A stretch of DNA of 64,000 bases, taken from positions 361,001 to 425,000 of the forward strand of contig JAQGDQ010000097.1 in the NCBI GenBank assembly GCA_030141605.1, given 5' to 3'. The DNA comes from Tubiluchus corallicola (Eukaryota; Priapulida; Priapulimorpha; Priapulimorphida; Tubiluchidae). How positions within the stretch are numbered: position 1 is the first letter of the stretch; every line of letters begins with the position of its first letter. This document shows, piece after piece, positions 31,301 to 42,979 of this stretch. The translations under genes were made by a program, and so were the position numbers. The notes below the pieces were generated by a model. The model was not told the DNA's origin, did no database searches, and saw only the letters and a list, made by a program, of their open reading frames with translations.

Positions 31301-33480
31301 TGTGTAAAATGAATCATTTTCATATTGCTGCTAAGTTATATAACGCGATTTTTCTTTATACTATATAAATAAAATGTATTTACCCCATTTTGTCTTAGTT
31401 GTTAGTTACAATTACTGCATTTTAACACTAAAGAATAAAGCAGCAATAAACAATGGGTAGCTATTATATGTAATAATGATTATAATACATAATATTGCTT
31501 GCAACGTAAAGATTCATTAATGAAAAAGAAGAAGCAATTCATGTGACGGCTCTGGCTTCTAACTGAATGAAATGCATTGTCAAAAAGGTAACAAATAGCT
31601 GTTCAAATACTAAAGCCACACGCGATATCTACTATTGCCACATAATATTTACCTCTTGCCGCGGTTTTAGTCTTTCTCCAGGAAGAGCAGGCAAAAATGC
31701 AGCTTTGGTTGGTTCATTTGCCAACTGACAAGTTTTGTACCTGATAAATCAACATTTACTACATCAAAAATTTGCAACAAAATCGGGTAGCTTTGAATTC
31801 AGATGAATAAATGCAAATTCAAAATGTAGTTTAAAAAGTAATTTAAAAGTAATATTCCGTACCAGTTAGCTCCAAAAATTATATTACGCAAGCGGGGATT
31901 CTCCATCAAAATTGGTGCCCTAGCTAAACTTTCCATCAAATCTTCAGTTTTCATTAAGTGGAACCTGACATTTTGCAGTACAGTCGCGGCAAAGTGCCTG
32001 CGCGATTCTGAATCATAGTCTAACCATCTCAGAGCAGCATCAAAAACTTCGAGTTCTGTGCTGACTTGAATGCCATCGTCAGAAAGGATCTCGCACAGAA
32101 TGGGTTGAGACAGACAAAGAAAATCAATGCCGTTTGATAACGTTTTAAATTCCTTGCCGATAAATCTGCGGATTTTGGCTGTAAGTTCTTCAAGTCCCAC
32201 TGATCGTGCTTTTTCATAGGACCTGAGAACGGAGTTCTCTGTCAGTACTGACTTGATGTACTGGTCGCAATATTTGACTATTTCTCTGTTGTGCAGGAAG
32301 TTGGCAGCTAGCCTCAGGTCACAAACGTTGTCTTTTGTGATTTTTACACGAACGCCATAATAACATCTGAGAAGAATACGGAAGGATTCTGGCGTGACGT
32401 CATCCAGCCTTAATTCCGGCATCTCCTGTTTCACGTCATACACCAGTAAGTCCCTGAAATATTTGCTATGTCGACAGAGAACAAAACTGTGAGTCTTGAA
32501 AATAACATCCTGCACAACTACAATTACATCTGGCATGTATCCTTCTTTGAAAACAATTGGTGGGTTTTCAGCTGCATCGGTGGTGCCAACACATTCGCAT
32601 GATTCTTGCATTTGTACGTCGTCAGGAACTAGAATTTTAAATGCAAAAACGAAAGTTAACGTTAATATCTTGTGTTTTAACTATCGTATTTTGTGTTTTT
32701 GCAATTAGGTATAACTGTATATGGGGAGGTCCGAGGTGAGTACGAGAGTGATTATTGTACTCATCTAATGAACCAAATTAAGTAACGACGGGCTGGTTAG
32801 TAAAGAGATGAATGGTTCAATTCGCTCTAATTGGTTCTCAGTTACTGTTATTCTGCACTTTTTTGTGACTGTGTTCAGTGCGTTTTCTGATGTGTTAATA
32901 ATATAAAGACAAAAAATTGTATTTAGTCATTAAATTTTTGTGTTTGTTTTTTGTAACCTAAAGATAAAGAAGAATGGTGATCTGGAATGTTGCGTTTTTT
33001 CTTTTTCTTTTTCTGTAACTGATATTCAGTCACATCATCATCATCATCATCGTCGTCGTCGTCACCATCGTCATCATCATCGTCACCGTCGTTATCGTCG
33101 TTCTCGCCATCATCATCATCATCATCACTATCATTGTCATTATTATAAATTATTTTGTCGGTCGCCGTCGCTATGCAGTTATAATCAATTCATGGCTTTA
33201 ACTAGGACTAACTTTGTTTCACTTTGTCCTGAAATGCATCTTCTTCATTGTAAAGACACTTGGCAGGGGCGTTAGGCCGTGGTTCTTGAACTTGTACTTG
33301 AACTGGTGCCATTTTATGCATCTGATTCATCTGGCGGGTAGTTTTGGGTGGACTACGACAGCAACCGAGTGGTCCAGCTGGTAGCCTCCCGTACTGAAGG
33401 GTGGCATCTACGTGTGACCCCTGACCCTGCACTTTCCTCCCACGAATGCAACAGTTTACCTGCCCGAAAAAGCGAAACAT
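25345..33480 (-). CDS. BTB-BACK-kelch protein with a large charged insertion (KLHL family)
   Basis: Probable Cullin-3 substrate adaptor. Firm exons: 32628-31863, 31740-31653, 31176-29717, 28170-28046, 27303-27126, 26565-26368, 26280-26060 and 25514-25345, all in phase. BTB (starting YMPDVIVVV) and BACK fill the first. The third adds about 486 residues rich in Ser, Lys, Arg and Glu, with a threefold EKPKS-GDIL-type repeat. The last five encode six kelch repeats (WSYDTEANEW, YAIGG, VVGG, TGG, IFGG). The N-terminus is less certain. An ATG at 32611 gives 1062 aa. An extra exon 33480-33213 (starting MFRFFGQ, phase 1, donor GTTAGT) joins in frame to the acceptor at 32628 and gives 1157 aa. Known KLHL proteins run about 550-650 aa, so the excess is the insertion plus any N-terminal extension. 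The specific KLHL ortholog is not recognised. Confidence 0.92.
25727..25790. repeat. CAT-rich trinucleotide tract
   Basis: Imperfect CAT/ATC repeats in the last intron of the kelch gene. They create a Met-rich minus-strand shadow frame. Confidence 0.7.
26697..27011. mobile_element. hAT-type MITE with near-perfect 8-bp target duplication
   Basis: 315 bp in a kelch-gene intron. The termini CAGGACTGGATTACC and, inverted, CAGGGTCGGATTCTG are imperfect TIRs of the common hAT form. Flanks GGTTAAGT (26689-26696) and GGTCAAGT (27012-27019) match at 7 of 8 positions, as expected for an aged hAT duplication. No transposase is present. Confidence 0.82.
28739..28785. repeat. GACA microsatellite
   Basis: About eleven tandem GACA units with one GATA interruption, in an intron of the kelch gene. 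Confidence 0.95.
29130..29290 (-). mobile_element. Probable LINE 3' end remnant
   Basis: Read on the minus strand, the segment ends with AATAAAGTTGAATTGAATTC, a simple-repeat tail often seen at LINE 3' ends. It lacks coding sequence. A similar TTTATTTCGAA stretch occurs at 53935-54060. Called on composition only. Confidence 0.35.
33030..33133. repeat. CAT/CGT trinucleotide microsatellite
   Basis: Interrupted CAT, CGT and CAC trinucleotides. The forward frame reads as a His/Arg tract and is not a gene. It lies between the two candidate first exons of the kelch gene. Confidence 0.9.
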
Positions 33481-34799
33481 ACAGCATGCTTTCTAATAAT
33501 GTTACAAATGTCAACTAAAGTGGCGCATACGTGGCATCCGGAATTATAAAAATTGGCTTATATTGTTTTCAATCCTGCGTTATGTATTATTTTTTCTGCA
33601 CTTATTTCCAATTGATTTTTTATTTCGCACAGCTATTCCGCAGGTAGATACGTATTCAGGATGCTACATAAACGCCACTTAAGACCATTATATTGTTTTG
33701 CTAATAAACTAGACATTTATAATAAATTTATCATAAAAAACAACTGAAATGCTATATTTTAGGTTTTAAGTACAATATGAGGTAAAATCTTCTCTTTTCT
33801 CTCTATGCAGTTATTAAATTTATGAACCCTGAGACATGTATTGCATCTGCTTTTTCTGGTGGGTAAATGTCTGAATCCGTACAGTGCAGCTCAAAATAAT
33901 AAAATGGATAAAATGAACCAAACTTACGAGCAATGCTTGGCAATAAGTTATATTGATAGGCAGCCATTATTGGATAAAGGCTCGACCAAAATCGCAGCCG
34001 ATTGGATGTTGTTCTTTTTAAAGGATGACCTTTTTGAAAAAAGCAAAGGATTATCATAAAACTTTGCATTATTATACTAGTGTGAATGCTAAATCGATTA
34101 ACAGTCGAGTTTCCGGTCAGCCATTTAGAATTCAAGACGGCTCACTAACATACGAAAAAGCCCAAGGCTTCGTGAATTTGCAACACATCATCATGAAACT
34201 TTACAGGACAGTACCAGAATTAATTCCACATCGAATTGATAGAATGCGATTTTTTTATTCGCCATTTCGAATTCCAGACAGCAGCGGCTCACACTATTTT
34301 TGAAAAAAAAAACGACAGGCTCCAACAGTTAGCATCGACCCGTCCTTAAAACCTTATTAGGGATACATTAGAACGAATTCTGCATCAAATAACAGAAACG
34401 GGTTTTTTAATTGACCACATTGGATGCAAGATGGCAGCACTCATATCATTTTTTAATAAAGTCTAGCGCTACATGGATCCACATTATAAAAACCTGTCTA
34501 GGAGTAGGCGTATATTATCGTCGTGAAACTTAGTCATGGGCCCAAGGACAAACAGAAGCTGTTCGAATAGACCGGTTTGTAGATAAACATTTGATCGTCC
34601 GATATAATTGTACAGTAAATTATTAGCATCTCACCTTAGAACTATAGCATGTTCAGAACTTTTGAGCTCAAAGTGCAAAGGATACGATTAATAACTGCAA
34701 TACGAACAGTAATTGAGTGTTAAAGACCAGGGAATAACAGCTTAAGAATATTGAAAGTATAAAATAGTGTAAAGTCGCCCAACAAGGGCAACGTCCGAC
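33481..34799. other. Divergent intergenic region between the kelch gene and SelL
   Basis: Shared upstream space of two head-to-head genes, so promoters for both should lie here. It holds MITE family copy 1 at 33516-33682. Two related strings, GCCATTTAGAATTCAAGACG near 34122 and a diverged copy near 34262, also occur. Overlapping frames at 33803-34303 on both strands show no domain. Confidence 0.55.
33516..33682. mobile_element. Short MITE family, copy 1
   Basis: About 167 bp. It starts TAAAGTGGCG and ends CGCCACTTAA, with the subterminal string GTGGCATCCGGAAT. Related to 36477-36683 and 44276-44400. Confidence 0.7.
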
Positions 34800-35753
34800 A
34801 TGTCGTCGTCAAGTGATGGTGCAGGTGTGACGGCAGCGACACTGACGACAGCACTGACAACTTTAACAAACACGTTGAATGAGCATTTGGACAAGAATGT
34901 AGACAACATTCGTCAACTGGGCAAGATCTTCCGGGAACAGCCTGAAGTTAACCCTCCATTCTTTTATGAATTGTTGTCAAGCCTAAGGTACCCTGTAATT
35001 TACATGTTTGTCGACTTATTTAAAAGCCTGGGCGTTCTTGCATTCACAGAGCTGGAGGATCTATGGAAACCATTCTACAGTATGTCTGTTGTTAGGGAAG
35101 CAGTTGACGAATTCGTCGACGTTCAGGATCGCTTTCATGAAATTTTCCGAGATTTTTCCATTCCCTTACCAAAAGATCAGTCAAAACTTGGTGAAGATGG
35201 ACCAATTGATATACCGCTAGTGAACGCAAGAACGGGTGAAGTGTCGATGATAAGAGATTACGTTGGAGAGTGCAATTTGCTTGTAATATTGCTAAGACAT
35301 TATATGTGAAATCCATGACGGAAGCATGTTGCAGCCGTCACCGACAACATGGACAAATTTGAGACTAAAAACACGAAAGTTATCCTTGTACGGCACGAAA
35401 ACGTCGAACTTTCCCGCAAGTTTTTGGAGCAGGAGAAATGCACACTTGATTTACTGGTAGACACCAAGAAAGAAGTTTATCACTTTTTCGGAATGGGCCG
35501 CTCCATGAACCATGCTTTAGGAAATTTGAAATCCTTGGAATTTTACATAAAAGGCATTGTTAAAACAGGCAAGTATCCAGGACTGACTGACTTGGAATCG
35601 GAGGTACCTGAAGACGTCGATCTTTTCCAGATGGCTGGCGATTTTTTGCTAAACAATAAAGGAAAATTGGTGTGGTTGTACAGAGCAGCTGGCGCTACAT
35701 TGCGGCCTACTGTAGAAGAAATTTTACAAGCTCTTCCTGTTAATGCAAAATAA
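34800..35753 (+). CDS. SelL: Selenoprotein L with two in-frame selenocysteine codons (UxxU)
   Basis: Thioredoxin-fold redox protein whose two selenocysteines can form a diselenide. One uninterrupted exon reads 318 codons if TGA at 35307-35309 and 35316-35318 is decoded as Sec, giving U-N-P-U in place of the thioredoxin CxxC. The motif sits just after the hydrophobic strand CNLLVILL, where a thioredoxin active site belongs. The sequence upstream (FKSLGVLAFTELEDLW, IPLVNARTGE) and downstream (DKFETKNTKVILV, LDLLVDTKKEVYHFFGMGRS) looks equally conserved and peroxiredoxin-like, so the TGAs are not decay. A SECIS-like hairpin follows at 35801-35862. SelL is an established family with exactly this motif and one SECIS, found in fish, marine invertebrates and some bacteria. 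Without Sec decoding the locus appears as two proteins of 169 and 134 aa. No coding introns, unlike most neighbours. Confidence 0.93.
35307..35318 (+). other. Two Sec TGA codons of the UxxU motif
   Basis: The bases TGA-AAT-CCA-TGA are in frame with both flanking conserved segments, giving Sec-Asn-Pro-Sec. In-frame sequence continues without another stop to the TAA ending at 35753. Confidence 0.92.
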
Positions 35754-35800
35754 AGACGGCACCAAAGTCTTAGCTTTCAGCTCATTTTAGCGTTGTGATT

Positions 35801-35862
35801 TGAATAATTTATGAATGCGATTGGTAAAACGGCTTCGAAGCCTCTCGCAGGAAATATATTTG
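35801..35862 (+). promoter_or_regulatory. SECIS element in the SelL 3' UTR
   Basis: About 57 nt after the stop. The 5' core ATGA (35811-35814) is followed by TGCGATTGGT, which pairs with GCCTCTCGCA (five pairs, two mismatches, then three pairs). The apical AAAA (35826-35829) and the 3' core GGA (35850-35852) complete the non-Watson-Crick quartet arrangement. CTTCGAAG in the apex can form a mini-stem, suggesting a form 2 SECIS. It would recruit SBP2 and the Sec elongation factor for both TGAs. Confidence 0.85.
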
Positions 35863-36476
35863 TTCGTGTCACATAGCTTTTTGTTTACAAAATTTTGGAA
35901 ATTTATTATTTTGGAATCTAGGAAAGTATTTCACATTTTGCTACAGAATAGTATATTAAAATAGATAAGTCTTATAGTTCAATAATAATTTAACAGATGA
36001 CGATAACAGTACTTGTAATATATAGTAAATATACGATATAATTATTACGCTGTAATATCTGTTGACAGCAACAGAAAGCATTATGAAGAAAAAATAATAG
36101 GGGTAACCTTCAATTGTCATTTTTGTTAATTAATGTATATACCGATAAATGTGGTAGCTCATTTAATTCCTGTTTAAGAAGATCACGTGATTAAAAAGTT
36201 TTTGAATAATGTTTTTGGTCAAGCGAATTCTTTTTGCTATAACATCTTTACCTAATACATTTTGAGCGCTGGCTGTAGAAACCTGTTTCAATTATGAACA
36301 CAGAACTATCTTTACTATTATTTGTCTCAAGCAAGTTGTCAAGTGTTGTTAAGATCGAAAGTAAAGAGGACTTTTGTGTTTCAATAGTCCTCAGCTTCCT
36401 CGTGAGCTCTAACAAAGGAACTTTGTAGTGTTTCTTACAATAAGTGCGCTAGCTCATTGTAAGATCACAACAGATT

Positions 36477-41466: not shown

Positions 41467-42240
41467 CTATCTACAACCTTTGTCTTTATCTGAGTTTGAA
41501 GACGTGCCCGAGCAAAATGCTGACGAACTGTCCACTTCAACAACACTATATGCATGATCATCACCATCATCATCAGATTCACTTAACTCTAGGTCATCCA
41601 TATCTGCCCCAAGCCACAGCTTTTGTGACTTTTGTTTTGTTTTACATTCAGGATTAATATCTGCTTTACGCTTTCTTGTTCCAACAGAACTAGAGGAAGC
41701 CTGAAGACCTTCAGTAACTGCACTTTGCACACTGTCTTGTATAGCAGATCGTTCGTCGTGGTAATTTGGATCATCAAAATTATGTCTGGGTGCAGATAAC
41801 AATTTCTCTAGTTTCTCTTTCTGACGTGCAGCTTCGGCTCTTTCACGTTCCGCTTTCTTTTCCATCCAGTCTTTTAGGCGCTGCTCATTATTAATGTCTC
41901 TCAAACGTCTGCCGCTCAAATCACGACAAGCTTCCCTGTTAGTAGTTTTTTCAATTTGTGCTCCAATAGCACGCAGCATAGAACCAAAACCGCCCTTTCC
42001 TCCATTTAGTCTTGTTCGAATTTCGTATATCTTGTCAAATTCGACTAGGTCGTAATCATTCGCTAGTTTTCCATTACAAATTAAATAGATATCAGTTAAA
42101 GAAACACGTTCTCTCTTTGCTAACGCCTGTTTAATAATTCTCATATAATTTGAGGATTCAGGAAAATGCTCGCCTGGCAACAGTATATTACAACATTTCA
42201 AACGTCCATCGCAACATCTGTACAACAAAGATGTATTCAT
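41467..42240 (-). CDS. SDE2: SDE2: ubiquitin-like-processed replication and splicing factor
   Basis: SDE2 is made with an N-terminal ubiquitin-like domain that is cleaved after GG; the mature Lys-starting protein acts in splicing and at replication forks with PCNA. The 257-aa frame has the Ubl region (residues 1-80), the cleavage motif GGKGGFGSML (80-89) and the near-invariant GAQIEKTTNREACRDLSGRR. These are followed by a charged coiled-coil (ERERAEAARQKEKLEKLL) and an acidic Ser-rich tail (ELSESDDDGDDH). Start: ATG at 42240 (MNTSLLYRCC); the frame extends upstream only with non-ATG codons. No coding introns, although animal SDE2 genes are usually split. The C-terminal SAP-like domain of vertebrate SDE2 (about 450 aa) is absent, leaving a length close to the fission-yeast protein. 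A second frame at 41340-41582 continues with similar Ser/Asp/Lys composition, so a late frameshift is possible. Confidence 0.93.
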   Translation of the reverse strand: MNTSLLYRCCDGRLKCCNILLPGEHFPESSNYMRIIKQALAKRERVSLTDIYLICNGKLANDYDLVEFDKIYEIRTRLNGGKGGFGSMLRAIGAQIEKTTNREACRDLSGRRLRDINNEQRLKDWMEKKAERERAEAARQKEKLEKLLSAPRHNFDDPNYHDERSAIQDSVQSAVTEGLQASSSSVGTRKRKADINPECKTKQKSQKLWLGADMDDLELSESDDDGDDHAYSVVEVDSSSAFCSGTSSNSDKDKGCR

Positions 42241-42979
42241 ATTTAATTTGGTCTTCTTCCACGCAACTTTAGTGATTGAATGAATTTTCAAAAAACAAAT
42301 TAAAAACTACAATTTAACACCAACAACTTCGACAACACAAAGTATTACAGCTTGCCAACATCAATGTAGGGCGCAGAATACGCCACTATTATTAGTACAC
42401 TTCCGCTAATGCGCATGTGCTAAATTTGCGGAAAAGCAGTGTCGTACATAGGCAGCACAAGTAGGGCATTGGCGATTTCTGTCGAGAATTATGACATAGT
42501 AAAACATAACATAAATTTGTTTTAGAAAAAATTAACTTTGTAATAATGATGAATAGTCTTTGACAATTTACAAATGTAGTTTTTATAATTAGCTCTATGT
42601 ACGACGTGTCCTACTTGGGCTAGCCCATGTACACGACGCCTACTTGGGGTAGCCCATGTACGCCAATTGTCCTACTTCGGCTAGTGCCCTACTCGTCTCC
42701 CAACAGTCAAAATGACGTATTCACGTCGCTGTTTAACTTTGAATCCGAGTGAATCCTACTCAGTGCCAATTTATTTACAATTACGGTACTGCTCGCTACC
42801 CCTTCCGCTTGGGGAGTCCCGAAACCAATTTACTTTAAAAAAAACGATCACCTTCTACCAGCTTAGTAGATTTTCACTGGAGTGAACTGGTCTACTAGAT
42901 CTGGGCAGAGTCACAGACTTTAGAATTAGAGGAACCTTACATTCTTGTATAATTTCGTTCTTGATTTGAATGATGCAGC

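Follow-up and report, generated by a model that had tools for sequence, protein, structure and literature searches.

A putative intronless selenoprotein L gene with a UNPU motif and one SECIS element, probably derived from a retrocopy, in Tubiluchus corallicola

Introduction

Selenoprotein L (SelL, SELENOL) contains two selenocysteines (Sec) that are reported to form a diselenide bond, and one SECIS element serves both of them (PMC2397514, PMC3316567). Table 1 of PMC3473315 lists one SelL each for sponge, placozoan, sea anemone, annelid and amphioxus and none for limpet; another gene, with two SECIS elements, is called rare in that paper. According to PMC12822975, less than 1% of SELENOE, SELENOL and SELENOJ are well annotated in Ensembl, which places SelL among the worst-annotated selenoproteins.

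Here we describe a gene in a 64-kb window (the whole stretch of DNA that was analysed, 64,000 nt) of the Tubiluchus corallicola genome. Judged from its sequence, it is very likely a functional intronless selenoprotein L, a new member of this established family. We read it in this way because of its UxxU motif, its family matches, its SECIS element, the existence of paralogues which keep the TGA codons under purifying selection, and the presence of Sec-insertion genes in the genome. Ordinary annotation would truncate such a two-Sec gene.

Results

The coding sequence (34800..35753, plus strand) is a single exon of 317 codons with a TAA stop. Its start codon, the ATG at 34800, is the first ATG downstream of an in-frame stop, and the sole interruptions of the frame are the TGA codons at 35307..35309 and 35316..35318 (plus strand), which are nine bases apart from start to start, with six bases in between. 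With both TGAs taken as Sec, residues 170 and 173 are the first and the second U of the motif U-N-P-U (residues 170-173). The two TGAs are the same in all four intronless copies in the genome, and a change of the third base alone would convert them to Cys codons. In the alignment with a Cys homologue on contig C886, UNPU stands opposite CSVC, each U against a Cys, the alignment itself being weak (16% identity, E 1e-6). The sequence-only reading had described two TGAs nine bases apart in one open, intronless frame, at the position of a thioredoxin CxxC and with conserved-looking sequence on both sides. The frame and the four intronless copies agree with this description, as do the domain matches and the dN/dS ratios before and after the TGAs and, within the limits of the weak CSVC pair, the position of the motif.

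A short 5' flank (34767..34799, plus strand) can be aligned with the copy on contig C1696 (blastn block 34767-35874, 77% identity) and is possibly a remnant of the 5' UTR. Downstream, ATTAAA at 35955..35960 (plus strand) is a possible poly(A) signal; as a motif only, it is weak evidence. The neighbouring genes, both on the minus strand, encode a BTB-BACK protein and the splicing regulator SDE2 (31860-32611 and 41470-42291).

At the protein level, we found matches to the Pfam families AhpC-TSA_2 (residues 184-296, E 3e-12) and AhpC-TSA (residues 142-235, E 2.6e-11) and to the NCBIfam family SelL_rel_redox (NF040769; residues 143-312, E 3.6e-31), the last with 108 bits and thus below the curated cut-off of 120. 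The genome contains ten NF040769 matches, two of which are the Cys proteins of contigs C886 and C846; by resemblance, we take both for bacterial contamination. An AlphaFold model built from four sequences had a mean pLDDT of 44 and is too poor to support or contradict the fold or the chemistry. Searches for relatives gave 51 pattern matches in one scan of bacterial and archaeal genomes and 80 in another, and three in viral contigs, none of them confirmed. Tblastn against plasmids returned nine weak records with 23-31% identity; redoxin or peroxiredoxin is the annotation of five. No relative with both TGAs was obtained from another genome in these bacterial, archaeal, viral and plasmid searches.

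The SECIS element (35786..35877, plus strand) comprises ATGA at 35811-35814, an unpaired AAA at 35826-35828, GGAA at 35850-35853 and a small apical hairpin. Its ATGA core starts 57 nt past the stop codon, and its fold has a z of -3.4, with none of 200 shuffles being as stable. We also used a scanner which asks for ATGA or GTGA, helix II, an unpaired AA or CC, a GA partner and helix I; it was written once the hairpin had been seen, and its rules may favour that hairpin. Among the candidates in the window (seven on the plus and 13 on the minus strand), the one at 35811 ranks at the top on either strand with -22.4 kcal/mol, followed by -19.2 on the minus and -14.2 on the plus strand. For the background, 120 strands of 64 kb were generated at random with the dinucleotide frequencies of the window; they yielded 1251 candidates, the best of which had -22.2 and fell short of -22.4.

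A covariance model was trained on the SECIS elements of three paralogues, with the copy of the window (contig C1771) left out. In the whole window it gave a single match, at 35786-35877, with 79.2 bits and E 8.6e-16. What this match demonstrates is homology to the paralogues rather than an independent origin. On the other loci the model recovered its own three members and gave weak signals at the C1936A array described below (17.5 bits) and on contig C2128 (17 bits).

In the four SECIS sequences, the 21 pairs of the two helices are paired in 98.8% of 84 cells, while slid structures pair in 33-52%; four pairs are altered on both sides. When the letters of the 3' side were shuffled, 4 of 500 shuffles matched the observed pairing, doubly changed cells and covariation score; the number of doubly changed pairs was matched by 27 of 500 and that of further pair types by 206 of 500. 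With four sequences, such covariation of the predicted helices is support, not proof. Folded alone, eight paralogue elements have z values from -1.6 to -5.6, that of C1696 having a modest fold (z -1.58, 11 of 200 shuffles as good).

In Rfam, no SECIS match was found at this locus up to E 5. This negative result says little because five loci holding paralogue SECIS elements gave no match either, up to E 10. A SECIS-like hairpin in the 3' UTR had been proposed from the sequence, and the fold z, the random background, the covariation and the covariance model all speak for it. The range first given for the gene, 34800-35862, ends 15 nt short of the end of the matched element. SECIS scoring was positive with our own scanner and the covariance model, but not with Rfam.

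A protein search of the 343.5-Mb assembly (2344 contigs) revealed 16 matches. Full intronless copies with both TGAs are found on C1771, C1460 (69% identical) and C1696 (71%). A fourth intronless copy with both TGAs, on C1151, is 66% identical over residues 1-271, where its coding sequence is split by an insertion of approximately 0.7 kb; the last residues match again beyond it. Decay is evident in the copy on C2128, whose matches break off at residue 109 and resume at 205; it holds stops and lacks the UxxU stretch. For its SECIS there was no scanner candidate, and the covariance model detected a weak trace (E 0.43). Exons of multi-exon relatives account for the other ten matches: C1936 has nine of them, from two copies and part of a third, and C36 has one.

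Nei-Gojobori counting gave a dN/dS of 0.117 for C1771 versus C1460 (0.130 before and 0.105 after the TGAs), 0.169 versus C1696 (0.199 and 0.141) and 0.152 versus C1151 (0.128 and 0.200, thus higher after the TGAs than before). The dS from C1771 to these three copies is 0.93-1.61, which marks them as old, and with dS above 1 the ratios are approximate. By this sequence comparison, purifying selection was shown on both sides of the TGAs. The other pairs gave 0.146 (C1460/C1696), 0.177 (C1696/C1151) and 0.504 (C1460/C1151), and the last value fits relaxed selection on one of the two copies. Since C1460 and C1151 have common flanks and a dS of 0.077, they appear to be recent duplicates or two haplotypes.

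Between stop codon and SECIS, the C1460 copy carries an insertion of approximately 947 bp with inverted-repeat ends (L023, 6214-7160). Its SECIS is intact at 1006 nt from the stop; without the insertion the spacing would be 59 nt, versus 57 in C1771.

In the multi-exon relative C1936A, five exons encode the protein from residue 110 to its C terminus; the four introns are of the GT-AG type, there is one additional acceptor, and UGPU is in frame. The alignment of C1936A with C1771 shows 105 identities in 203 columns. The second, divergent multi-exon SelL relative lies on C36 (L021, 4725-4868, minus strand), contains UVPU and has 33% identity over the exon with this motif. A scan of the 1.6 kb past its last matched exon found no SECIS. 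Its intron boundaries at 184/185 and 277/278 are exactly those of C1936A, and it has no intron at 146. A third boundary, near 109/110, is less sure: an exon of C36 starts there too, but has five extra residues before the next aligned block begins. Because these two divergent relatives have boundaries in common, the introns predate the split between them.

On C1936A (L020, minus strand, 2418-1849), four SECIS elements were detected at +39, +196, +354 and +512 nt from the stop codon. They form a 158-bp tandem repeat of 3.6 copies with 92% matches, in which ATGA, AAA and TGAT are kept in all four elements. In the 1.2 kb read, AATAAA/ATTAAA occurs only at +625. The array may have a function, be a neutral minisatellite or result from an error in assembly.

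The sequence-only reading also implied that the host has full Sec machinery. Our searches took in tRNA-Sec, SPS2, SepSecS and eEFSec, and these four were found. A tRNA-Sec with the anticodon UCA (77.6 bits) is located on a 3-Mb contig. On C2218, the frame DLKGUGCKVPQ contains an in-frame TGA and adjoins exons which match the selD family; we take UGCKVPQ to be the SPS2 motif. The match to the fourth domain of eEFSec (E 3.5e-23) is absent from all 14 control genomes, while SepSecS (E 1.7e-10) is matched in three of the 14 too.

A second tRNA-Sec gene is present together with bacterial-looking ORFs on the 33-kb contig C151 (L002). Part of the assembly is thus probably derived from a bacterium that uses selenocysteine, either a symbiont or a contaminant.

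Discussion

A gene with two stop codons close together could be a pseudogene or a truncated gene, the TGAs being ordinary stops and the downstream frame a relic, and damaged copies do exist in this genome (C2128, and C1151 with its insertion in the coding sequence). Yet the frame after the TGAs has dN/dS ratios of 0.105, 0.141 and 0.200 when C1771 is compared to the three other copies, the same two TGA codons are kept in four of four intronless copies, and the SECIS helices covary, all of which makes such decay very improbable at this locus. That the frame is open when TGA is taken as sense would also be expected if TGA had been reassigned to another amino acid in the nuclear genome, with no involvement of selenium. 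In this case, however, TGA should not be confined to the two redox positions, as it is in the three uninterrupted intronless copies, and neither the SECIS downstream of the frame nor the presence of tRNA-Sec(UCA), eEFSec and an SPS2 with its own in-frame TGA would be accounted for; we regard reassignment as having practically no chance of being correct. Based on dN/dS, covariation and machinery, both explanations were rejected. The proposed reading as an intronless SelL with UNPU and one SECIS is in agreement with the frame, the sub-threshold family match, the dN/dS ratios, the helix covariation and the covariance model.

As the comparison of the gene structures suggests, the absence of introns is probably a derived state: a SelL mRNA would have been retrocopied with its SECIS, and the copy would then have multiplied. 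We infer a retrocopy because the introns came first and because all introns of the multi-exon relatives C1936A and C36 are absent from the four copies. It would also be conceivable that the family was intronless at first and its relatives gained introns, or that introns were lost one by one. Such scenarios are helped by the fact that the end of the C1771/C1696 homology at the likely mRNA bounds is not diagnostic at a dS near 0.9. For the same reason, unrelated flanks were not counted as evidence for a retrocopy, since neutral flanks at this dS are not expected to align, and a poly(A) tract and a target-site duplication are not expected to survive at a dS near 1. Against these scenarios stand the boundaries common to C1936A and C36 (two exact and probably a third), by which the introns precede their split, and the lack of all those introns in four copies. 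Furthermore, vertebrate selenoprotein genes have several exons, with SPS2b and Dio3 as the exceptions named in PMC3316567. Altogether, an origin other than retrocopying appears unlikely.

From established biology, SBP2 and eEFSec with Sec-tRNA would decode both UGAs via the single SECIS. The product would be a thioredoxin-fold protein with U-N-P-U at the CxxC place of its peroxiredoxin-like relative; its two Sec may form a diselenide, as reported for SelL, and cycle in thiol or peroxide redox chemistry. The proposed retrocopy would have arisen when a spliced multi-exon SelL mRNA, SECIS included, was reverse-transcribed into an intronless copy, and this lineage would then have multiplied to give C1771, C1460, C1696, C1151 and the decayed C2128. 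It is tempting to speculate, with considerable doubt, that a two-Sec protein became a multigene family by copying through mRNA in which the SECIS was taken along, while the SECIS of the multi-exon branch rose to four per 3' UTR, as if an increase in the amount or efficiency of double-Sec decoding had been selected for.

These observations are of interest for several reasons. With several two-Sec copies in one genome, a count of one SelL per animal may be too low. Further, the number of SECIS elements (one or four) and the distance from stop to SECIS (57 nt to approximately 1 kb) vary, which provides a natural test of how a SECIS serves two neighbouring UGAs. In the literature searched (titles and starts of abstracts, with few subscription journals), we found no report of a retrocopied SelL or of four SECIS elements per gene, which is a weak negative.

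Among the described systems, the prokaryotic Prx-like thiol:disulfide oxidoreductases with UxxC or UxxU (NF040769; PMC13188914) have a related domain and, in part, the UxxU form. Unlike the members of that family, the protein described here scores below the family cut-off. In prokaryotes, moreover, Sec decoding uses a different SECIS layout. As a selenoprotein gene probably copied through mRNA with its Sec codons kept, the locus resembles mammalian SPS2b, an intronless retrogene (PMC3316567); SPS2b, however, encodes another protein and has a single Sec, in place of several copies with two Sec each. The closest likeness is to SelL itself, with two Sec close together in a redox motif and one SECIS for both (PMC3316567). 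Here, however, the gene is intronless and present in multiple copies, and this state is a new detail on an established family.
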